Origin: Candidatus Endobugula sp.
Lineage (GTDB): Bacteria > Pseudomonadota > Gammaproteobacteria > Pseudomonadales > Cellvibrionaceae
Direction of reading: 5' to 3'
DNA: 56,165 nucleotides
Assembly: GCA_020628895.1 (NCBI GenBank)
Contig: JAHDEM010000009.1
Span: 1,736-57,900, forward strand
Shown: positions 6,133 to 39,334 of the stretch, piece after piece
How positions within the stretch are numbered: position 1 is the first letter of the stretch
Layout of the letters: every line of letters begins with the position of its first letter
Made by a program: the position numbers and the translations under genes
The notes under the pieces: model-generated
The model's database searches: none
Seen by the model: the letters and a program-made list of their open reading frames with translations, nothing else
Told to the model about the DNA's origin: nothing

Positions 6133-7101
6133 TTACAAATCATACTTTATAGTTTGTAGAATATCTTCGACGTTATCCTTTGTGACTGCTGAACCTTTTA
6201 TCGCAATCCAACTAGGAATCGCACGCTCTAGAAGAGATAAAATCGTTGTCCGAGCAACAACCTCTCCCTGAATATAAGGGTTTTGTGCGACTACGCCAAT
6301 AACATGGTGCCCATTCGATAAAGCATTTGCTGTGTTTTGGCTGAGATCAACAGTAACCAAGGGTAGATTTAGATTTTTTTCGTCAATAACCACAATAGTA
6401 TCCATAGCTGGTACATCCCACACGACAAAAATGCCAGATAATTGTGGATTATTTTCGATTAATTCCTGAGCGGCCACTTTTACGTGCTTTAATGAATGAA
6501 ATCTTGTTGTAATAATATCTGTATCTGGGCGATTGCTTCTAAACCAGCGTCCAAAAGAGATTTCACGCTCGTTGGTTGCATAGAAATCTGTCCCAAATGT
6601 TAATATTCCTACAGCCCCTTTGTGAGGAATATGAGGCGATAATATTTCGGCAGCAGTTGTTCCAATATGAAAATTATCGGACGAAATAAAAGAGGAATAA
6701 TCTCGGCCAGGTAGCAGTCCAGTCGGCACGCTGTCATGCAGGATAAGTTTTTTTCCTGATTCAGAAATATGACGATGGGCATCAATGACATCTAAGTTAC
6801 CTATGGGAATAGAAATCACAGCATCAATATCAGAGCGTTTTGATAAAGTGGTCAGTGCATCTATTTGAAGTTGAGGGGTAAATTGGCAGTCAATAATATC
6901 GTCAACGATGATGTCATGTTCACTAAGTATATTCATCAATCCTTTTAGCGATTGCTTAGACCAGTCGCTACTTGTCGTATGGTATACCACTGCAATACGA
7001 AATTTCTGATCACGAGCCTGTTGGCTTTGAATAGGTGATAGTGATACTTCATTAAGCTTAGTGGGATGTTCTCCATGCGGTCCTAAACCAGTAACCGACA
7101 T
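6133..7101 (-). CDS. Signal-peptide-less periplasmic-binding-protein-like protein
   Basis: 322 residues with the type I periplasmic-binding fold (Peripla_BP_4/RbsB-like) but no signal peptide: the N-terminus MSVTGLGPHGEHPTKLNEVS is polar. It is clearly related over its full length to the secreted binding protein encoded at 9597-10718. Compare GPHGEHPT with GPNGENPT, DWSKQSLKGL with DWSRAQIEGL, and VVWDVPA (residues 226-232) with AVWDVPA. It has no helix-turn-helix, so it is not a LacI regulator. It lies 33 bp downstream of the ROK regulator with an AGAGG ribosome site, so the two are probably co-transcribed. The likely role is a cytoplasmic sugar sensor or co-regulator; this is inference. No upstream in-frame signal sequence was seen. 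Confidence 0.75.
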   Translation of the reverse strand: MSVTGLGPHGEHPTKLNEVSLSPIQSQQARDQKFRIAVVYHTTSSDWSKQSLKGLMNILSEHDIIVDDIIDCQFTPQLQIDALTTLSKRSDIDAVISIPIGNLDVIDAHRHISESGKKLILHDSVPTGLLPGRDYSSFISSDNFHIGTTAAEILSPHIPHKGAVGILTFGTDFYATNEREISFGRWFRSNRPDTDIITTRFHSLKHVKVAAQELIENNPQLSGIFVVWDVPAMDTIVVIDEKNLNLPLVTVDLSQNTANALSNGHHVIGVVAQNPYIQGEVVARTTILSLLERAIPSWIAIKGSAVTKDNVEDILQTIKYDL

Positions 7102-7134
7102 AACAGTGCCTCTTTAATAATTATTATATAAAAG

Positions 7135-8475
7135 TTAATCGACTATAAATTCTTCGATTCTATTATCTTGATTCAATTCACCTAATAATCCCTTAAATTT
7201 CGGCTCGTTTGCTGGGTGCCCATATAAAACCCATTGTTTTAAATAGGCAGGTTCAAATAAGCCATCAGCTGCAATCGCAGCTGAACCAATTAGTCCTGCA
7301 GAATGCCCCAACACAGATGCTTCTACTAAAGTATCCTTAGATATCAGTGGATGTGCATTACGATATATCATTTCTCTAATTGCAGCTAAAAGAATGTCAT
7401 TATCCTGTACTAGTGAGCCGCTAATAATAATTCTTGATGGATTGAGCATATTGGCTATCGTCGCTATATTTTGTCCTATTCGTCTTCCGCAGTTAGAGAG
7501 TATTTCCATCGCAACATGATCTGCAGCTCTAGCTGCATTGGACACATCAATAGCATTTATGTTTGCTTGTTGTGCCAGAATATTTTCTAGTATTTTACTT
7601 TGTCCAGAATTCGCAGCGTCATTTCCTAATTTTGCGACCATCAACTCACCAGCTACCGAATTTAATGAGCTAGTAGCACCTGCTGACTCAACAGGAGTGT
7701 GCCCTATAAGTCCTGTCAGTCCATTAGCACCTTGGTATAGTGATCCATTGATAATAAGACTAGCTTCGATACGATTACTTACTTTAACAAATAGCACAGT
7801 CTCTGATTCAAAAGTGTCTAGTGACTGAGTTTGTCCCATAGCCATGGCTTCCACACTACCACGTATCCACACAGGAGCTTTATAGTAGGATAATAGTTGT
7901 TCAATTAGAGGTGCATCAGCCCATGCTGAGGGCATTGAAGGGGTTTTGTAAAAAAAGTGGGAGTTCGAAAAACTTTCTACAGGCCCTGGTATAGATAAAC
8001 CAATACCTAGTACATCGATATTTGTTACCTCGCGATCAAGTAATAAATCGAATAAAGCAATCAAATGCTTCATTATCTGATCGCTACTAGCATTTGCATC
8101 TATATTTTCATGGTGCTCGGTGAGTAAATTACCTGATAAGTCGGCCATACCTACACCTAATACCTCTTGTTCAATAGAGGCTACCAGAAATCGGCCAGCA
8201 TCAGCATTAAACTGGATAAGCCGTGGTGCACGTCCTCCTGTAGTGACTCCTAGACTACCTTCATTGATAAAACCAATATCAGAAAGAACGGATAGCCTAT
8301 CGGTAACTGCTGTTCTACCCATTTCACAGGTTCGCTCTATTTCTTGTCGAGTTAGGTGTTTTTTATTGCGAAGTAAATTAAGAATTTGCTCTACACCGGG
8401 TGCAAGTGACTTTGAATAGGTCTCACGTACTCTAAGATTCTTCGATGTTTGGTTCTTATCGTTTTGTACAAACAT
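7135..8475 (-). CDS. ROK-family transcriptional regulator (NagC/XylR-like)
   Basis: 446 residues, longer than the usual 380-410. A winged helix-turn-helix at about 30-80 (QEIERTCEMGRTAVTDRLSVL) is followed by a ROK actin-like domain with GIGLSIPGPV (157-166) and GLTGLIGHTPV (252-262). The kinase-type catalytic N-D is absent (IRGSVEAMAMGQ at 204-215), so it is a regulator. Where ROK proteins carry a CxCGxxGCxE zinc motif this one has GATSSLNSVAGE (266-277), with no cysteine. It is divergent from the sugar cluster and is its likely regulator, with candidate sites at 8575-8622. The ligand is probably the imported sugar or a catabolite (inference). Confidence 0.88.
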   Translation of the reverse strand: MFVQNDKNQTSKNLRVRETYSKSLAPGVEQILNLLRNKKHLTRQEIERTCEMGRTAVTDRLSVLSDIGFINEGSLGVTTGGRAPRLIQFNADAGRFLVASIEQEVLGVGMADLSGNLLTEHHENIDANASSDQIMKHLIALFDLLLDREVTNIDVLGIGLSIPGPVESFSNSHFFYKTPSMPSAWADAPLIEQLLSYYKAPVWIRGSVEAMAMGQTQSLDTFESETVLFVKVSNRIEASLIINGSLYQGANGLTGLIGHTPVESAGATSSLNSVAGELMVAKLGNDAANSGQSKILENILAQQANINAIDVSNAARAADHVAMEILSNCGRRIGQNIATIANMLNPSRIIISGSLVQDNDILLAAIREMIYRNAHPLISKDTLVEASVLGHSAGLIGSAAIAADGLFEPAYLKQWVLYGHPANEPKFKGLLGELNQDNRIEEFIVD

Positions 8476-8574
8476 GTCTTATTCTTTGGCCCGCTATCAT
8501 TTTCTTATTATTGAGGATGCAAGGTGATTATATCTGCTGCTTTGCAGTATTCAATGGCATATTTCGTTAAAAAC

Positions 8575-8622
8575 CAATCTTTTGCATAAAAAATACAAAA
8601 GATTGTTATCTTTTGCATAAAA
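8575..8622. promoter_or_regulatory. Candidate ROK operator: inverted plus direct repeats
   Basis: CAATCTTTTG (8575-8584) and CAAAAGATTG (8596-8605) are a perfect 10-bp inverted repeat. ATCTTTTGCATAAAA occurs twice (from 8577 and from 8608), spaced exactly 31 bp, close to three helical turns. The array ends just before the predicted promoter of the rightward sugar operon. Confidence 0.6.
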
Positions 8623-8625
8623 TGT

Positions 8626-8655
8626 TTGACTGTGGGCGCTTAGTTGTCGTATAAA
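8626..8655 (+). promoter_or_regulatory. Predicted sigma-70 promoter of the sugar operon
   Basis: TTGACT (8626-8631), an 18-bp spacer and TATAAA (8650-8655). It lies directly downstream of the repeat array and 31 bp before the first gene's ATG, so a bound regulator would overlap or abut the -35 box. Confidence 0.55.
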
Positions 8656-8686
8656 GTAACCAATCTTCTGTTGGAGAATAAAAATA

Positions 8687-9511
8687 ATGATAAAAAACAA
8701 ACTATCTTATCAAGCAAACTGTTGGGGTCCATTAGGCGGTAATGCCGTAGGCGTGACTTCTACCACTAAATTAACCTACCGTACCTTTGGTGATATGGAT
8801 AAAGCTTTCGCTGATATTCGTGCAGCAGGTTATGTAGGAGTGGAAATATTTGATGGCAATTTGTTAGATCTGTCAGTTTCAGAGAGTAGATCTTTACTGA
8901 ATAACAATGGTCTTGAACTTGTTGCTGCCTACTCTGGAGGCAACCTCATATTTAAGGACATTTTATCTGAGGAGTTAAATCGATTTAGAATTGTTGCGGA
9001 TCGGTTGGCTGAATTAGGTGCACCTCACTTAGTTGTTGGCGGAGGAGCTAAAAGATTCGACGGGCCAAAAGACAGTGATTACTCAGTGTTAGCAGATTCC
9101 TTGGAACAAGTAGTGACAATAGCTAAAGAAAGGGGACTTGAAGCTCACTACCATCCGCACTTAACGACTTTGGCTGAAACCGAAGACCAAGTGCGCCGAG
9201 TTTTTGAACAGACCTCCATTCGCTTTTGCCCAGATACGGCTCACTTGGCTGCAGCAGGTGGGAACCCTGCACAAATGATAAAAGAGCATAAAGATAGGAT
9301 TAGCTACGTCCATCTTAAAGGATTTCAGGCAGACCCATTTGCTTTCACACCTTTAGATCAAGGTACCCTTGATCATGCATTTATTCTTGATGCACTTAAA
9401 GAAATAAATTTTTCAGGTTGGTTAACTACTGAGTTAGACGAGTGGCCAGACCCGAGTGAAGGTGCCAGAAGTAGCATGGCCTACCTAAAAGATCAGTTGA
9501 ACCTTAGCTGA
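8687..9511 (+). CDS. Sugar phosphate isomerase/epimerase-like TIM-barrel protein
   Basis: 274 residues of the xylose-isomerase-like TIM barrel (AP endonuclease 2 / IolE-IolI superfamily). Putative metal-site segments are GLEAHYHPHLTT, FCPDTAHLAAAGG, ISYVHLKGF and TTELDEWPDP, which supply the expected His, Asp and Glu ligands near strand ends. Such enzymes isomerise, epimerise or dehydrate sugars, inososes and keto-sugars with a divalent metal. GGAG at 8673-8676 precedes the ATG. As the first gene of the operon that also encodes a sugar importer and a dehydrogenase, it probably processes the imported sugar. The exact reaction is not deducible. Cytoplasmic. Confidence 0.85.
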   Translation: MIKNKLSYQANCWGPLGGNAVGVTSTTKLTYRTFGDMDKAFADIRAAGYVGVEIFDGNLLDLSVSESRSLLNNNGLELVAAYSGGNLIFKDILSEELNRFRIVADRLAELGAPHLVVGGGAKRFDGPKDSDYSVLADSLEQVVTIAKERGLEAHYHPHLTTLAETEDQVRRVFEQTSIRFCPDTAHLAAAGGNPAQMIKEHKDRISYVHLKGFQADPFAFTPLDQGTLDHAFILDALKEINFSGWLTTELDEWPDPSEGARSSMAYLKDQLNLS

Positions 9512-9596: not shown

Positions 9597-10718
9597 ATGA
9601 TGATTAAAAAAATCCTAGCCACCAGTGCTATTGCACTTTCTGTTGCTGCAGGAGGTATAACCTCTTCAGTATTTGCTAATCCTGATAAAGCGCTTGCTGA
9701 ATTGGAAAAACAGGTCTGGTCTAAAGGGCCTAATGGCGAAAACCCAACACCAGCATCTGATTTAGTTCTCACATCATCAGAACTTGAGAAAATTAAATCA
9801 ATGAAAGCTAAAGCAGCAATTGTTATGCACTATGGTGGCAATGATTGGTCTCGTGCTCAAATTGAAGGTTTGGAATATCAGTTTAAAGAAATGGGTATAG
9901 AGGTTATTGCTATCACCGATGCCGGTTTTAAACCCGAAAAACAAGTCGCTGATATTGAAACAGTGATGACGCAAAAGCCTGATATTATTATCTCAGTTCC
10001 TAGCGATCCGGCAGCAACAGCAGCAGCTTATAAAAGAGCAGCAGAAGCGGGAATTAAAATCGTCTTCATGGAAAATACACCACCAGGTTTAAAGGCGGGC
10101 GAGGATTACGTTTCAGTAGTTTCTGCTGATAACTATGGTAATGGTGTTGCCTCTGCTCATTTAATGGCTAAAGCGTTAAATGAAAAAGGCAAAGTAGGGC
10201 TGGTTTATCACGCGGCTGATTTTTTCGTTACTCGCCAACGCTATGACGCCTTCAAAAAAACGATCGCTGAAAATTATCCCAACATTAAAATTGTGTCTGA
10301 ACAAGGTATTGGAGGACCGGATTTTTCAGGTGACGCAGATAAAGTCGCTTCGGCAATGTTGATATCAAATCGTGACATAGATGGCATTTGGGCGGTGTGG
10401 GACGTTCCGGCCGAAGGTGTTATTTCTGCAGCTCGTGTAGCTGGTCGCGACGATCTTGTTATTACGACTATCGATCTTGGAGAGAATGTGGCTATTAATA
10501 TGGCTCAAGGTGGTTTTGTTAAAGGATTAGGAGCACAGCGACCATTTGACCAAGGTGTTGCTGAAGCTATTTTAGCCGGTTACGGTTTGTTGGGTAAAGA
10601 GGCACCTGATTTTGTCGCGTTACCTGCCTTACCTGTCTTTAAAGATAATTTACTTGATGCCTGGAAAGAGGTTTATCGAACAGAAGCAACAAAAAATATT
10701 AAGAAAAGTTTACGATAG
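9597..10718 (+). CDS. Sugar ABC importer periplasmic binding protein (RbsB-like)
   Basis: 373 residues from the ATG at 9597. GAGGA at 9584-9588 is well placed for it, and the more upstream TTG (9564) and ATG (9582) have no ribosome site. A classic signal peptide (MIKKILATSAIALSVAAG, cleavage after VFA) is followed by a Peripla_BP_4 domain. An N-terminal ENPTPASDLVLTSSE extension precedes the fold, and WAVWDVPAEGV lies in the second lobe. It belongs to the ribose/galactose (CUT2) class and feeds the RbsA/RbsC-type subunits that follow. The ligand is unknown. A stable intercistronic hairpin follows it. Confidence 0.9.
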   Translation: MMIKKILATSAIALSVAAGGITSSVFANPDKALAELEKQVWSKGPNGENPTPASDLVLTSSELEKIKSMKAKAAIVMHYGGNDWSRAQIEGLEYQFKEMGIEVIAITDAGFKPEKQVADIETVMTQKPDIIISVPSDPAATAAAYKRAAEAGIKIVFMENTPPGLKAGEDYVSVVSADNYGNGVASAHLMAKALNEKGKVGLVYHAADFFVTRQRYDAFKKTIAENYPNIKIVSEQGIGGPDFSGDADKVASAMLISNRDIDGIWAVWDVPAEGVISAARVAGRDDLVITTIDLGENVAINMAQGGFVKGLGAQRPFDQGVAEAILAGYGLLGKEAPDFVALPALPVFKDNLLDAWKEVYRTEATKNIKKSLR

Positions 10719-10793: not shown

Positions 10794-12353
10794 ATGAAAG
10801 ATACAGAATTTGTTGTAGATCTAAAAAATATATCTAAAAGTTTTGGCGGAGTTAAAGCATTAACGGGTGTCAACTTCCGTTTATTACCAGGTGAAGTTCA
10901 TGCTTTGTTGGGCGGTAATGGTGCAGGTAAATCAACGGTACTTAAAGTGCTTAATGGAGTTCATCAACCAGACTCTGGCAGCATTAGTATTGCTGGAAGA
11001 GTGATGCATAATTTAACACCAGAAACAGCTCGTGAATCTGGTATTGCTATGATTTTTCAGGAACTAAGCTTAATTCCTTCATTGAGTGTTGCTCAAAATG
11101 TATTTTTGACAAGAGAAAATAAATCGAATTTTGGCTTAATTGATGACACTACAGCAGAGAAAAAGTCTCAAGAATTATTCAATATGCTGGATGTTGATGT
11201 TAATCCAAAAAGCTTGGTTTCCGAGCTGGGGGCAGGGCAGCGCCAACTAACAGAAATAGTAAAAGCAATCAGCCAAAATGCAAAAGTGCTTGTGCTTGAT
11301 GAACCATCAACAGCGCTCTCTGTATCTGATGTGGAGCGTTTATTTGTTTTTTTGCGAAAACTAAAAAAACAAGGTGTTGCAATCGTCTATGTTAGTCATC
11401 GTATGGATGAAATTGCGCGAATAGCGGATCGTGCAACTATTTTTCGTGACGGAAGAAATGTTATCACCGCCCCAATTGATCAGCTACCGATTGATACAAT
11501 GATTGAATATATCGTGGGTAAAAGGTCGTTGGGGTTAAGTGACATTAAACGTGATTCTGTCAAATTAGGTAAAGCCTTATTGACTTTAAAAAATGTTTCA
11601 GGCCGTTATAAACCAAATAATATTTCCTTGTCTTTGCATCAAGGAGAAGTTATTGGTTTAGCAGGGCTTTTGGGCTCTGGTCGATCGTCGTTAGCAAAAG
11701 TTATTGCAGGTGTCGATCCAATTGTTGAGGGTGAGGTTTTTGTTAATAGCAATAATATTAAACTTCGTAATTCTAGTGATGCCATAACTGCAGGCATCGC
11801 TTTGGTACCTGAATCTAGAGCAACCCAAGGTATGATTGCTAGCCACTCGCTTGCAAGTAATATTACTTTACCAATATTAGAAGAGCTGTCGACAAATGGG
11901 ATTGTTAATAATGCGAAAGTGCGAAAAATTTCTCAGGAAAAAATTCGTGAATTGAATATCAAAACAGCTTCGCAAGATCATGCAGTATCTACATTATCCG
12001 GTGGAAATCAACAAAAGGTTGTTATCAGTAAATGGTTAGTAACTAATCCAGATATTTTAATTTTAGATGAACCTACAGCAGGTATCGATATTGGATCGAA
12101 GTCTGAAATTATTGAATTAATTCGTGATCTAGCAAGAGAGGGTAAAGCCATTTTGATGATTTCTTCAGAACTAACAGAGCTTCTTGCTGCCTGTGACCGA
12201 ATAGCTGTTATGAATGATGGAGAAATTTTTAATATTCACGATAGAAAAGATCTGGATGATCCAACTCTGTCCGATGATCCAGAAAACCAACTTCAGGATG
12301 CTGAGCAAAAACTTCAGTTGCTTATCCAAGATGCATTAACCATTAAATCTTAG
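10794..12353 (+). CDS. CUT2 sugar ABC importer ATPase (RbsA/MglA type)
   Basis: 519 residues with two fused ABC domains. The first has Walker A GGNGAGKST (40-48), signature-like LGAGQRQLTEI, Walker B VLVLDEPSTALS and H-loop YVSHRM. The second has the degenerate Walker A GLLGSGRSSLAK, signature LSGGNQQKVVISKWL and Walker B ILILDEPTAGID. This tandem layout, with a weak second P-loop, is diagnostic of RbsA/MglA/XylG ATPases. It follows the binding-protein gene and precedes the permease by 10 bp. There is no strong Shine-Dalgarno before the ATG. Cytoplasmic face of the inner membrane. Confidence 0.93.
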   Translation: MKDTEFVVDLKNISKSFGGVKALTGVNFRLLPGEVHALLGGNGAGKSTVLKVLNGVHQPDSGSISIAGRVMHNLTPETARESGIAMIFQELSLIPSLSVAQNVFLTRENKSNFGLIDDTTAEKKSQELFNMLDVDVNPKSLVSELGAGQRQLTEIVKAISQNAKVLVLDEPSTALSVSDVERLFVFLRKLKKQGVAIVYVSHRMDEIARIADRATIFRDGRNVITAPIDQLPIDTMIEYIVGKRSLGLSDIKRDSVKLGKALLTLKNVSGRYKPNNISLSLHQGEVIGLAGLLGSGRSSLAKVIAGVDPIVEGEVFVNSNNIKLRNSSDAITAGIALVPESRATQGMIASHSLASNITLPILEELSTNGIVNNAKVRKISQEKIRELNIKTASQDHAVSTLSGGNQQKVVISKWLVTNPDILILDEPTAGIDIGSKSEIIELIRDLAREGKAILMISSELTELLAACDRIAVMNDGEIFNIHDRKDLDDPTLSDDPENQLQDAEQKLQLLIQDALTIKS

Positions 12354-12363
12354 GAAGATTAGT

Positions 12364-13335
12364 ATGTCTTTAAATGATACATCCACAGAAAAAACAACCC
12401 TGCTTGAATGGGGTTTAATAAATTGGCGCCGTAATATTATCTATATCGGATTTATCGCTATTTTTATCATCTTCTCTATTACCTTACATGATAAAGGCTT
12501 TTTAGATCCAACTAATTTACTCAACATTATTCGTCAAACAGCAATGATTGCGGTAATGGCTATTGCCATGACTTTTGTATTATCTTGCGGAGAAATTGAT
12601 CTCTCGGTTGGCGCAGTAGCTGGACTAACTTCTGTCACCGTTGCCATGGCTATTGATGCTGGAGGGATGATTTTTGGAATAGGGATTGGTATCGCTACTG
12701 GTATCGCTGTTGGTGTTTTTAATGGATTGTTAACCACAAAAATTGGTATCCCTTCCTTTTTAACTACCTTGGCTATGATGGGTATCGCTAAAGGAGTGGC
12801 TATGTGGATTAGCGATACTGCTGCAGTACCAATCATTGAACCGAGTTACTCTTGGTTATTCGGTGGTGGTTCAATAGGCATTATCCCTGTATTAGCAATT
12901 TGGATGTTAGTTCTAGGTATTCTTGGGCATTTTACACTAAAGCGTACAGGGTTTGGGCGTCGAGTTTTAGCCACCGGTGGTGGTGAGCAAGCTGCACGTT
13001 ACTCGGGTATTAATACTAATGCGATTAAATTTAAAGTGTTAGTGCTTTCATCTTGTGCTGCCGCATTAGCTGGCATGCTTTACGCAGGGCGCTTGCAATC
13101 TGGAAGATTTCAGTTGGGTGAAGGAGATGAACTGTCTGTTATTGCAGCAGCAGTATTAGGTGGAACTAGTTTATTCGGTGGATATGGCACAGTTATTGGC
13201 ACCATTGTTGGTGCTTTGATGATCGGTCTAATTAATAACGGACTGATTTTAATGGGGTTGGAATTCAGCCAACAACTTATCGCACGTGGAGGGATTATTA
13301 TCCTTGCCGTCGCCCTCAGTCAAAAAAGGAGCTAA
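12364..13335 (+). CDS. CUT2 sugar ABC importer permease (RbsC type)
   Basis: 323 residues with 8-10 predicted hydrophobic helices. Family landmarks are CGEIDLSVGAVAGLTSV near the N-terminal third, GGGEQAARYSGINT in the cytoplasmic coupling region, and the C-terminal GGTSLFGGYGTVIGT block followed by NNGLILMG. These are typical of RbsC/XylH/MglC permeases, which act as homodimers with one RbsA-type ATPase. AGGAAG precedes the ATG, and the stop is 3 bp from the next gene, indicating one operon. Confidence 0.93.
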   Translation: MSLNDTSTEKTTLLEWGLINWRRNIIYIGFIAIFIIFSITLHDKGFLDPTNLLNIIRQTAMIAVMAIAMTFVLSCGEIDLSVGAVAGLTSVTVAMAIDAGGMIFGIGIGIATGIAVGVFNGLLTTKIGIPSFLTTLAMMGIAKGVAMWISDTAAVPIIEPSYSWLFGGGSIGIIPVLAIWMLVLGILGHFTLKRTGFGRRVLATGGGEQAARYSGINTNAIKFKVLVLSSCAAALAGMLYAGRLQSGRFQLGEGDELSVIAAAVLGGTSLFGGYGTVIGTIVGALMIGLINNGLILMGLEFSQQLIARGGIIILAVALSQKRS

Positions 13336-13338
13336 TGT

Positions 13339-13650
13339 ATGATTCCTAAATGTACCATTATAGGCACTGTGATTGCTAAACCAGAAAAGAGAGAGGAATT
13401 GAAAGATATCCTCTACGCGCAGGTTGACCCAACGCGTTCTGAAGAAGGTTGTATCAATTATGATTTTCATAGCGATGCTAAAGATTCTTGCGTGTTTGTT
13501 TTTTATGAGAATTGGCAAACACAGGAAGATCTTGACGAGCATTTGCGTAAACCGCATTTAAAGCCTCTGTTTGAACGACAGGAAGAATTATTGGCTAGGC
13601 CAGTAGAGATACGCTACTTAAATATGATCAGTGACTTTGTGTCTCAATAA
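13339..13650 (+). CDS. Antibiotic biosynthesis monooxygenase (ABM) domain protein, YgiN-like
   Basis: 103 residues, a single ABM/dimeric ferredoxin-like domain. Characteristic segments are KPEKREELKDIL, EEGCINYDFHSD, FVFYENWQTQEDLDEHLR and HLKPLFE. The SD GGAG overlaps the end of the permease gene. Members of this family act as quinol monooxygenases or as small accessory or isomerase proteins. Tight placement between a permease and a TIM-barrel enzyme argues for a role in this sugar pathway, perhaps on an oxidised or keto intermediate, but that is inference. Cytoplasmic. Confidence 0.82.
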   Translation: MIPKCTIIGTVIAKPEKREELKDILYAQVDPTRSEEGCINYDFHSDAKDSCVFVFYENWQTQEDLDEHLRKPHLKPLFERQEELLARPVEIRYLNMISDFVSQ

Positions 13651-13666
13651 TATAGGAGTATTTTTT

Positions 13667-14722
13667 ATGGGACAGATTAAAGGTCCAGGTATTTTTCTAG
13701 CCCAATTTTCAGGTGATCAAGCCCCGTTTAATAATCTAGAATCAATTGCACAATGGGCTGCAAATCTGGGTTATAAATCTGTTCAGCTTCCTACCTTTGA
13801 TCGACGATTATTTGATCTAGATAAGGCAGCAAGTAGTCAAACTTATTGTGATGAAATTGTCGGTAAATGCCGAGAAGCAGGTATAGAAATTAGTGAATTG
13901 TCCACGCATTTGCAAGGCCAATTAGTCGCTGTTAATCCCGCCTACGATTTAAGCTTTGATGCCTTTGCTCCCAAAGAACTAAAAGGTAAACCTTCTGTAA
14001 GACAGGCTTGGGCAGTGGACCAGCTTAAGCAAGCTGCTATTGCCTCGCGCCGAATGGGTTTAAATACTACGGTTAGTTTTACTGGGGCTTTGGCATGGCC
14101 TTATATATACCCTTGGCCGCAGCGACCTCAGGGTCTTGTAGAGGAAACATTTGCTGAGCTAGCTAGGCGTTGGTTGCCTATCTTTGATGCTTATGCAGAA
14201 CAAGGTGTAGACATTGGTTTTGAGATTCACCCGGGGGAGGACGTTTTTGATGGTGCAACATTCGAAATGTTTTTAAATGCAGTTAATGATCATGAGGTAT
14301 GTAGAATTAACTACGATCCGTCCCATTTTCTTTTACAGCAGATGGATTATCTTGAGTTTATTGATATTTATCACGAGCGTATTTGTGCATTTCATGTAAA
14401 AGATGCAGAGTTTAATCCAACAGGTCGGCAAGGTGTTTACTCCGGTTACCAAGGATGGCAGAACCGTGCAGGCCGTTTTAGAAGTCTTGGCGATGGACAA
14501 GTTAACTTTGGTGCTATTTTTTCTAAGTTAACGCAATACGGATACGATAGCTGGGCAGTATTAGAATGGGAGTGCTGCTTAAAATCATCAGAGCAAGGGG
14601 CTAGAGAGGGAGCTCCATTTATTGCAGAACATATTATCGAGTCGACGGGTAAGGCTTTTGATGATTTTGCTGGAGGTAATGTAGATAGATCTGTTATCAA
14701 CTCAATGTTAGGGATAACGTAA
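13667..14722 (+). CDS. Second sugar isomerase/epimerase-like TIM-barrel protein
   Basis: 351 residues from the ATG at 13667, chosen because TAGGAG (13652-13657) precedes it; an in-frame upstream start at 13631 would overlap the previous gene. Xylose-isomerase-like TIM barrel with probable metal-binding segments GFEIHPGED, INYDPSHFLLQQ, FHVKDAEFNPTG and AVLEWECCLK. It is larger than the 274-residue paralog and belongs to a different branch, with the N-terminal motif FLAQFSGDQAPFNNLES. This branch is often found beside Gfo/Idh/MocA oxidoreductases, as here, where its stop overlaps the next start (TAATG). Reaction unknown; isomerase, epimerase or dehydratase on a keto-sugar is likely. Confidence 0.85.
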   Translation: MGQIKGPGIFLAQFSGDQAPFNNLESIAQWAANLGYKSVQLPTFDRRLFDLDKAASSQTYCDEIVGKCREAGIEISELSTHLQGQLVAVNPAYDLSFDAFAPKELKGKPSVRQAWAVDQLKQAAIASRRMGLNTTVSFTGALAWPYIYPWPQRPQGLVEETFAELARRWLPIFDAYAEQGVDIGFEIHPGEDVFDGATFEMFLNAVNDHEVCRINYDPSHFLLQQMDYLEFIDIYHERICAFHVKDAEFNPTGRQGVYSGYQGWQNRAGRFRSLGDGQVNFGAIFSKLTQYGYDSWAVLEWECCLKSSEQGAREGAPFIAEHIIESTGKAFDDFAGGNVDRSVINSMLGIT

Positions 14723-15852
14723 TGAGAAAGCTTAGATTAGGAATGGTTGGTGGAGGACAGGGAGCCTTTATTGGTGGTGTGCACCGTATTGCGGCTAGAC
14801 TTGATGGACAATGGGACTTAGTTGCAGGTGCCTTGTCTTCAGATCCAGAAAAATCTATAGCTTCTGCTCAGGAGTTGGGTATTGATTCCCAGAGGGCATA
14901 TACAGATTTTAAAGAAATGGCAAAAGCTGAGGCAACAAGAACTGATGGGATAGATGCTGTAGCCATTGTCACTCCAAATCATATGCATGCTGATCCAGCT
15001 GTCACTTTTCTAGAGTCTGGTATTCATGTTATCTGTGATAAACCGTTGGCTTCGACTGATCAGGATGCAGTTCGAATTAAACAAGCCGCTCATGCGTCAA
15101 ACGCCAGTTTTATTCTTACACATAACTACACAGGGTACCCAATGGTTCGTCAAGCACGAGAGATGTTTTTGTCTGGTTGTCTGGGTGAACTTAGGTTACT
15201 GCAAGTTGAATATTTGCAAGATTGGCTAAGTCACCCCTCATCACCAGATAATAAACAAGCGAAATGGCGAACAAATCCTAACTTAGCAGGTGCTGGTTGT
15301 ATTGGTGATATTGGAACACACGCTTTTAATTTAGCGCACTTTATCACCAATCAATTACCTTCAAAATTATCAGCGGACTTAACAAGCATAGTCGATGCTA
15401 GAGCAGTGGATGATAACGCGAATGTCTTACTTCGTTACCCAAATGGTGCTAGAGGTATTTTGTGGGCCAGTCAAGTCGCAGTGGGTAATGAAAATGGTCT
15501 AAGGCTTCGTATTTATGGTGATAAAGGCGGCTTAGAGTGGCATCAAGAAATGCCAAATCAATTAATGTTTACCCATTTTGGGCAGGCAACTCAGGTATTG
15601 ACTAGAGGTTCTGAATCAATGACAGCACCTATAGCACATCAAGCCACACGTCTACCTGCGGGCCATCCTGAAGGTTATCTTGAGGCTTTTGCTACGTTAT
15701 ATAAGGAAGCTGCTGAGTTGATTCGCGGTAACATGCATATGAGTACTTTATTACCCACTCTCAACGACGGGCTTATAGGTATGGAGTTTATTCGTGCAGC
15801 GATTGATTCGAGTAAACAAGACAGTGTTTGGGTACCCTTAAATTGTTCATAA
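14722..15852 (+). CDS. Gfo/Idh/MocA family NAD(P)-dependent sugar oxidoreductase
   Basis: 376 residues. A Rossmann glycine motif GMVGGGQGAFIG (7-18) lies in the N-terminal domain, VTPNHMHA at 83-90 and CDKP at 105-108; this is the family EKP motif with Asp for Glu, its Lys being the catalytic one. The C-terminal alpha/beta domain has GDIGTHAFNLAHF supplying the usual catalytic Asp and His. It overlaps the TIM-barrel gene by one base pair. The family oxidises sugar or inositol hydroxyls, often to 3-keto sugars, with NAD(P). It is the likely oxidising step of this cluster. Substrate unknown. Confidence 0.9.
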   Translation: MRKLRLGMVGGGQGAFIGGVHRIAARLDGQWDLVAGALSSDPEKSIASAQELGIDSQRAYTDFKEMAKAEATRTDGIDAVAIVTPNHMHADPAVTFLESGIHVICDKPLASTDQDAVRIKQAAHASNASFILTHNYTGYPMVRQAREMFLSGCLGELRLLQVEYLQDWLSHPSSPDNKQAKWRTNPNLAGAGCIGDIGTHAFNLAHFITNQLPSKLSADLTSIVDARAVDDNANVLLRYPNGARGILWASQVAVGNENGLRLRIYGDKGGLEWHQEMPNQLMFTHFGQATQVLTRGSESMTAPIAHQATRLPAGHPEGYLEAFATLYKEAAELIRGNMHMSTLLPTLNDGLIGMEFIRAAIDSSKQDSVWVPLNCS

Positions 15853-38317: not shown

Positions 38318-39334
38318 TTATTCGTTAGGTAAAAATTTAAGTTGCGGGGCGAGTAATGTTTGACCTAGCTCGTTATCACTATTACGCAATTTATCAAGCA
38401 TGTGTTTACCCAAAGCTTCGCCGGTCATTTCAATATCTTCGATAATTTGGTCAACCGGTGTTGCCAGCTGATCTAATATTCCTGATGTTGATTTAACAAC
38501 AAAGTTATAATGTGTGATGACATACTCTACAGGTAATTGATCTCTTAGCCCTGATGTAATCGCTAGGTAAGAACTTTCTCCTGGGCACACAAAGCCGTCT
38601 GGTGCATTTCCCTTTTTAATTCTTTCGCTTATCCATGATCGTATTTCGTGACTTTCTGAATCAAGGTCAATGTTTTCAGGGATTTCAAAATCCACATTAA
38701 AATCCCTGATTGCTTTCATAAATCCGGTGTGTAAATGCTGATTAAAAGAAAGTGTTGTTGGGGGCAAAATAATACAGATTTTTTTGCTTTTCTTTTCAAC
38801 AAGCCTTTTAACCGCTTCATAGGCAAAACGTTGGTTGTCGTAATCAACATATGAATGCGGTGCAGCAAATTCTGTTCTGCCATGACTAATAAAAGGATGG
38901 TTGACCTCTAATAAATAGCGTATGCGATTATCGAAAGGTTGTGTGCGAGTAAAAATAATTCCGTCAGAAAATTTATTTCTGACAATCGACTTGATTGGGC
39001 TTAATTCATCTTCCTTGCTAAAACTAGGGGTTATATTAAGGTGGTAGCCAGAACCATGAAGTGCTCGAGTTAGACCTACGATCAATGAGTTGCCAAAACC
39101 AATGGATTCTTGGTGTGGGCATAATACTAAGCTAACGACTTTTGTTTTTCCTGTGCGTAATCGTTGTGCAGCTCTGTCGGGAACGTAGCCAATCTCTTCT
39201 GCAACACTGGCGACACGATGGCGAGTTTTAAGGGCGATTTCTGGAGCGCCTGATAATGCTCTTGATACGGTAGTAATTGCCAAGCCCGTTAATTCCGAGA
39301 TGGTTTTTAACGTGGGGCGCTCATCTGATTTCAT
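38318..39334 (-). CDS. LacI-family transcriptional regulator of hexose genes
   Basis: 338 residues. Helix-turn-helix near 8-30 (LKTISELTGLAITTVSRAL) and a hinge at AAQRLRTGKTKVVSLV, then a periplasmic-binding-like effector domain. Located between the two gtsA-type genes and divergent from the second one. Six copies of a TTAAAACGTT-type motif occur upstream of both gtsA-type genes and of gap, making it the natural candidate to bind them. Effector unknown; a hexose or hexose phosphate is plausible. The hinge and operator style (central CG) are standard for LacI proteins. Confidence 0.9.
   Translation of the reverse strand: MKSDERPTLKTISELTGLAITTVSRALSGAPEIALKTRHRVASVAEEIGYVPDRAAQRLRTGKTKVVSLVLCPHQESIGFGNSLIVGLTRALHGSGYHLNITPSFSKEDELSPIKSIVRNKFSDGIIFTRTQPFDNRIRYLLEVNHPFISHGRTEFAAPHSYVDYDNQRFAYEAVKRLVEKKSKKICIILPPTTLSFNQHLHTGFMKAIRDFNVDFEIPENIDLDSESHEIRSWISERIKKGNAPDGFVCPGESSYLAITSGLRDQLPVEYVITHYNFVVKSTSGILDQLATPVDQIIEDIEMTGEALGKHMLDKLRNSDNELGQTLLAPQLKFLPNE

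Follow-up and report, generated by a model that had tools for sequence, protein, structure and literature searches.

Within the window, by which we mean the whole stretch of 56,165 nucleotides analysed here, two genes on the minus strand diverge from an operon for sugar import and catabolism on the plus strand. The first of the two encodes a ROK-family regulator of 446 residues, identified by domain search (7135..8475), and the second a leaderless sugar-binding protein of the Peripla_BP_4 family (cSBP), 322 residues long and identified by domain search and alignment (6133..7101). The coordinates and strands of the original prediction proved right, as did its spacing of 33 bp between the ROK gene and the cSBP gene, and the gene map and domain search agree with its placement of the pair opposite to the importer operon. 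That operon begins with a xylose-isomerase-like TIM-barrel enzyme (8687..9511), followed by the exported sugar-binding protein of the importer, in which a signal peptide is present (sSBP, 9597..10718), the ATPase (10794..12353) and permease (12364..13335) of a sugar ABC importer, an ABM-domain protein (13339..13650), a second xylose-isomerase-like TIM-barrel enzyme (13667..14722) and a Gfo/Idh/MocA oxidoreductase (14722..15852), all on the plus strand. The enzymes of the operon say little of the identity of the sugar, as their scores against the models for myo-inosose dehydratase and levoglucosan dehydrogenase fall far short of the cut-offs. The G+C content of the ROK/cSBP pair is 0.397, against 0.400 for the window. 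Elsewhere in the window, a weak Peripla_BP_4 match (E 3e-4, under the cut-off) was observed at 38540-38923 on the minus strand, within an open frame of 351 codons.

Recurrence and joint evolution of the two genes

Pairs of a ROK regulator with a leaderless binder are found in other genomes, though seldom. Scanning GTDB contigs gave a single relative, located in a Rhodobacter MAG; there too the ROK gene stands upstream, and the divergent operon is of the same kind. In the order of this MAG at least 6 of 390 genomes match (E 1e-64), and in its class at least 3 of 385, the MAG being counted in both; two small orders gave 2 of 22 and 2 of 11 genomes, the centre genome counted. Among relatives of the window genome the pair occurs in 1 of 117, the window's own, and at least 1 of 274 genomes of the window's class has it (again the window's own) among the best candidates scored. 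In a sample of the phylum at least 6 of 398 genomes match at E 1e-90: the window's genome, one with the contig coordinates of G135, which had already been counted, and four with exported relatives, which were not counted as leaderless because a signal peptide was evident by eye. The figures for the order, the class, the window's class and the phylum are lower bounds, since the best five to seven candidates per genome were scored where there were more. Plasmid cases were found in Paracoccus, Sinorhizobium, Ensifer, Shinella, Rhizobium, Agrobacterium, Ochrobactrum, Mesorhizobium and Rhodobacteraceae bacterium SC52.

In all 23 loci fetched, which include near-copies L024 (of L023) and L035 (of L034), the ROK gene lies directly upstream of the binder on the same strand. 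It is broken in one of the 23, L031, where an open frame of 180 codons is left. At this locus (~7448-9032, on an Ochrobactrum plasmid) the leaderless binder lies behind the broken ROK gene, and no importer genes are annotated within 8 kb. The gap between the two genes, measured to the nearest ATG in 21 pairs, is -4 to +14 bp in 17, 33 bp in the window and 71, 104 and 127 bp in the other three; the window's ROK and cSBP genes probably share a transcript.

The paired ROKs form one clade in a quick tree (SH-aLRT 99). Across 15 loci (105 pairs), the identities of the ROK proteins and of the leaderless binders are correlated at 0.97. The partial correlation of the two, given the exported binder, is 0.90, a value reached in 0 of 2000 permutations, while that of ROK and exported binder given the leaderless binder is -0.02, and that of leaderless and exported binder given ROK is 0.40. 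Tight linkage by itself could yield part of the identity correlation.

The leaderless binding protein

Homology of cSBP to the exported product of 9597-10718 had been proposed over the whole length of the protein, and residues 7-318 indeed align with it, at 31% identity over 319 columns (E 3e-48), with GP(H/N)GE and VWDVPA motifs common to both. cSBP falls in the type I sugar-binding proteins by its domain (PF13407, 67.4 bits against a cut-off of 35.1), and its structure model (pLDDT 85) resembles the binding proteins for ribose, xylose and allose with Z of 28-31. Peripla_BP_4 is the sole domain; as expected, no DNA-binding domain was found at E 0.001, and a LacI HTH fused to the binding domain is likewise absent at that threshold.

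An upstream start would not supply the missing signal peptide. The stop-to-stop frame spans 6136-7113, with an in-frame stop five codons before the ATG, and the ATG is preceded by only four in-frame codons (RGTV), none of them listed as a start; on these grounds a signal peptide gained from an upstream start is ruled out. Export signals were judged by eye and by the highest Kyte-Doolittle mean over 12 residues within the first 40, rather than with a trained predictor, and by this measure cSBP has no recognisable signal peptide, its best mean being -0.01 against 2.14 for the exported protein. No hydrophobic export signal was found in any of the 17 leaderless proteins measured (the window's and 16 others). 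With the nearest ATG taken as start, the maxima of the 16 range from 0.40 to 1.60, and those of exported relatives from 1.6 to 2.8. For 15 of the 16, the stretch with the highest mean starts at residue 25-29 and falls on the first strand of the folded domain; the remaining protein, from Mesorhizobium (L034), has a maximum of 1.31 in its N-terminal extension, and its start is uncertain. We infer that cSBP is located in the cytoplasm.

Alignment and the structure match place W47, D123, R179, F201, W228, D229, D252 and Q273 in the pocket of cSBP. For the corresponding positions of RbsB we take R141, D215, Q235 and D89 to have roles in the pocket. The ligand-pocket residues, whose loss would have marked the protein as decaying, are not lost: all 21 leaderless proteins have R179, D252 and Q273 (equivalent to RbsB R141, D215 and Q235), as well as W228 and D229. 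The position of RbsB D89 is Asp in 16 and Glu in 5 of the leaderless proteins, and that of W47 is Trp in 20 and Phe in one.

In a first tree the leaderless proteins form a clade of 16 rows (100/99); in a second the clade has 20 rows (99/99), and the exported proteins encoded in the same operons fall outside it. This separation, seen in two trees, rules out an origin of cSBP from the exported protein of its own operon. The suggestion that cSBP is a recent copy of its exported neighbour thus has to be given up: the two are homologues, but the leaderless proteins are a clade of their own. The window's cSBP sits on a long branch in the binder trees, where the protein of the SC52 plasmid groups closest to it (supports 99/93 and 99/91, subject to a long-branch warning), and because of this placement the window lineage may have acquired the locus; the ROK tree leaves the kinship open, and in G+C content the pair does not stand out from the window. 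Six exported proteins, those of L103-L106, L063:940-2115 and L066:11149-12324, score 341-353 bits against the leaderless profile, compared with ~270-280 for the same-operon binder, and the tree gives no resolution of their position relative to the leaderless clade.

Relatives of the leaderless binder are under purifying selection. Their genes gave dN/dS of 0.05-0.17 in 12 comparisons and the partner ROK genes 0.04-0.19, values from sets in which genes were reused across comparisons, several dS were saturated (>1) and the window's own pair was left out.

The sugar site of the ROK regulator and the operator-like palindrome

The ROK domain of the regulator spans residues 111-403 (PF00480, 107.6 bits against a cut-off of 22.9). 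A winged-helix region lies at about residues 30-90, aligning from residue 30 with the solved Lmo0178 and from residue 41 with Mlc, and Pfam HTH_24 matches below its cut-off only. The structure model of the regulator had a mean pLDDT of 46 and was not used.

In GNE the sugar-binding residues are N516, D517, E566, H569 and E588, the last two lying within a zinc motif, GHx9-11CxCGx2G(C/H)xE, that has been described as a feature of all ROK members (PMC2742894). At the sugar-contacting Asn, Asp and Glu the window's ROK has Gly, Ser and Leu. Its residues 205-209 (RGSVE; 7849..7863, minus strand) occupy the Asn-Asp position of ROK kinases and many ROK regulators, and residues 256-259 (LIGH; 7699..7710, minus strand) replace ExGH, after which the CxCGxxGC zinc cysteines are absent. 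Among the 21 paired ROKs compared, the sugar-contacting Asp is gone in 20 of 20 readable proteins (L070 reads X), and both the sugar-contacting Asn and the Glu of ExGH are gone in all 21; the old Asn-Asp site reads RSSVE in 14 of the 21. Zinc cysteines are missing from 18 of these proteins, the window's included, and present in L034, L061 and L066; the His of ExGH is kept in 5 of 20 readable proteins, again including the window's. At the last contact position, a Glu in GNE, ten of the 21 have Glu and nine have Asp, the window's protein has Asn and that of L034 has Gln.

These losses were set against 38 comparison ROKs: five unpaired neighbours, three from E. coli, and 30 background proteins from the order of the Rhodobacter MAG, namely those of 53 matches that came with a locus, seven of them kinase-like by length and tree. 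The Asp is kept in 36 of the 38, the exceptions being the unpaired L050 (Ser) and the background L100 (Ile); the solved Lmo0178, as read from alignments, differs at this position too. The ExGH Glu is kept in 26 of the 38, and the five unpaired neighbours have Asp (four) or Asn (one) in its place. NagC and Mlc have His at the position of the sugar-contacting Asn, and the zinc motif is not universal in the family, because 8 of the 30 background ROKs are without the zinc cysteines. Losses of the Asn, the Glu and the zinc cysteines are, on these alignments, less telling than loss of the Asp, and because the Asn and Glu losses are partly common to unpaired ROKs, our confidence in a split receptor is tempered. 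The usual sugar pocket of the partner ROK domain looks lost.

Some loci bear on the order of these changes. The unpaired Agrobacterium ROK with Ser at the sugar Asp (L050:5908-7149) is a possible intermediate; as it is sister to the paired clade, with weak support (SH-aLRT 80), loss of the Asp may have preceded the pairing. L034, L061 and L066, whose paired ROKs retain the zinc cysteines, cluster in the tree (93) and show the largest distances between the two genes, a pattern that would fit a sensing role handed over step by step. In the order of the Rhodobacter MAG, L087-L093 are ROKs with the sugar Asp and without the zinc cysteines, five of the seven also being without the ExGH Glu and His, and binding-protein-like frames occur in five of these loci (L089-L093).

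Between the divergent genes of the window lies an operator-like palindrome, ATCTTTTGC-N9-GCAAAAGAT, with one mismatch (8577..8603), adjoined on the plus strand by an extra half-site, ATCTTTTGC, read from the sequence (8608..8616). The palindrome is exact in L020 and L028. The window copy is the sole match with up to three mismatches in 56 kb, where 0.11 would be expected; the consensus was drawn from loci other than the window, and as the window repeat was known beforehand, this test was not blind. Eleven of the 21 paired loci have a palindrome with up to three mismatches upstream of the ROK winged helix, and no second site of that quality. Weaker ones are found in L023 and L024 (four mismatches) and L069 (five), and those of L011 and L025 (five) and of L034, L062 and L070 (six) are tied with matches elsewhere in the locus; none was found upstream of ROK at L061 and L066. 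The five unpaired loci have no palindrome with up to five mismatches upstream, and L050 has one with six. The ROK protein would be expected to bind this palindrome.

A candidate split receptor and its alternatives

We think it probable, from the sequence comparisons above, that the ROK and cSBP genes encode a split intracellular sugar receptor, in which sensing has moved from the ROK domain to the cytoplasmic binder. The original idea of a two-protein intracellular sensor is thus supported, and none of three signs that would speak against it, namely a signal peptide added by an upstream start, lack of conservation of the pair, or loss of ligand-pocket residues, was found. In such a receptor, the importer would bring sugar into the cell, where the leaderless binder would close on the imported sugar or on a breakdown product. 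The ROK domain, its usual mode of sugar binding gone, would be contacted in its remodelled form by the binder. The winged helix of the ROK protein would bind the palindrome between its own gene and the divergent importer/catabolic operon, and contact with the binder would alter this operator binding and, through it, how strongly the importer and enzyme genes are expressed. The likeliest effect of the ligand-bound binder would be to lift repression, though the sign is a guess.

There is a small but real chance that cSBP instead buffers sugar in the cytoplasm or carries it to the catabolic enzymes, and is co-transcribed with the regulator for convenience, with no contact between the two proteins. 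The retained pocket and the lack of a recognisable signal peptide would suit this role, and contact cannot be read from gene order. However, the binder pairs with a ROK gene, not with catabolic genes, in 23 of 23 loci, the same loci show loss of the ROK sugar-site residues, and the identities of ROK and binder track each other beyond the exported binder. A slim chance goes to a ROK protein that still senses a small molecule via its remodelled site, with a binder that only modulates it, for example by handing over the sugar. Although the sugar-contacting Asp and the ExGH Glu are gone in all readable paired ROKs, the motif that has taken the place of the old one is conserved, the ExGH His is kept in five of the 20 readable proteins (the window's included) and the zinc cysteines in three of 21, and the fifth contact residue remains Glu in 10 and has become Asp in nine of the 21. 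It is very improbable that cSBP leaves the cytoplasm by some unrecognised route and acts as an additional binding protein for the importer: it belongs to the same family as the importer's exported binder, but a hydrophobic signal was seen in 0 of 17 proteins measured, the window frame has its stop five codons upstream, and the gene lies behind a regulator, opposite to the importer. We give almost no credence to cSBP as a degrading duplicate of the exported binding protein, for which one might cite the long window branch and a mean identity over the same 15 loci of 57% for leaderless against 76% for exported proteins, as this reading is contradicted by a clade of its own that is not sister to the local exported copy, by a pocket that is invariant, window included, and by the low dN/dS in the 12 comparisons among relatives.

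Parts of a split receptor of this kind have precedents. Mlc of E. coli is described as a ROK repressor induced by a protein partner, EIICB-Glc, and not by glucose or another small inducer (PMC3901232), and because a ROK protein is there induced via a protein partner, this counts as a precedent. The partner of Mlc is a membrane PTS enzyme, the glucose transporter, which sequesters it, whereas cSBP, as a partner, would be soluble and related to binding proteins; moreover, Mlc keeps the Asp, Glu, His and zinc cysteines, whereas the paired ROKs have neither the Asp nor the Glu, and 18 of 21 have no zinc cysteines. Regulators of the LacI family join a DNA-binding part to a periplasmic-binding-protein-like ligand part inside the cell (PMC4052901), but in one polypeptide with a LacI HTH, unlike the unfused ligand protein and ROK DNA-binding protein of the present locus. 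Exported Peripla_BP_4 proteins of the RbsB type share the fold and pocket of cSBP; they are exported, whereas cSBP has no recognisable signal peptide and is encoded behind a regulator. Fusions of a periplasmic binding protein with a DNA-binding domain have been engineered as intracellular sensors (PMC6079105), and these are artificial and fused, whereas the ROK/cSBP pair is natural and split. Regulators whose ligand domain resembles a periplasmic binding protein are usually presented as modules fused together (PMC4052901, PMC6079105). Among the matches listed in the searched literature (titles and the starts of abstracts, with few subscription papers), there was no report of a leaderless binder with a ROK regulator.

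In the paired loci sensing has apparently passed between proteins and the donor pocket apparently been dismantled in steps (three pairs keep the zinc cysteines and 18 are without them). If the split receptor is real, it would be a natural template for plug-in biosensors and a directly testable case of sensor transfer between proteins, and it may help to explain ROK regulators for which no effector has been found. A wider proposal, that there is a class of split receptors in which a binder without an export signal took over sensing for a regulator with a dismantled pocket, with one ROK origin in proteobacteria and at least one independent loss of export in haloarchaea, is more tentative, and we hold it as a serious possibility just short of an even prospect.

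The haloarchaeal part of this proposal concerns plasmids of Haloarcula, Salinigranum and Halalkalicoccus, which carry a leaderless relative (L039:6971-7990, L045:3550-4578 and L046:7971-8987) besides an exported lipoprotein-like one. The three leaderless proteins group in a clade of their own (100/99) that lies within the haloarchaeal exported proteins, so loss of export has occurred at least twice. None of the three plasmid loci has an annotated ROK gene next to the leaderless gene; an IclR gene lies within ~6 kb of all three, those of Salinigranum and Halalkalicoccus being confirmed by Pfam. The pocket Asp (D252 position) is Gly in two of the three proteins. Beside the haloarchaeal sugar loci we also noted, at L045:7787-9452 and L046:2985-4635, a small HTH gene that overlaps by a few bases the gene for a protein of ~450 residues; these larger proteins match no Pfam family with confidence, and one of them is annotated as a beta-agarase.
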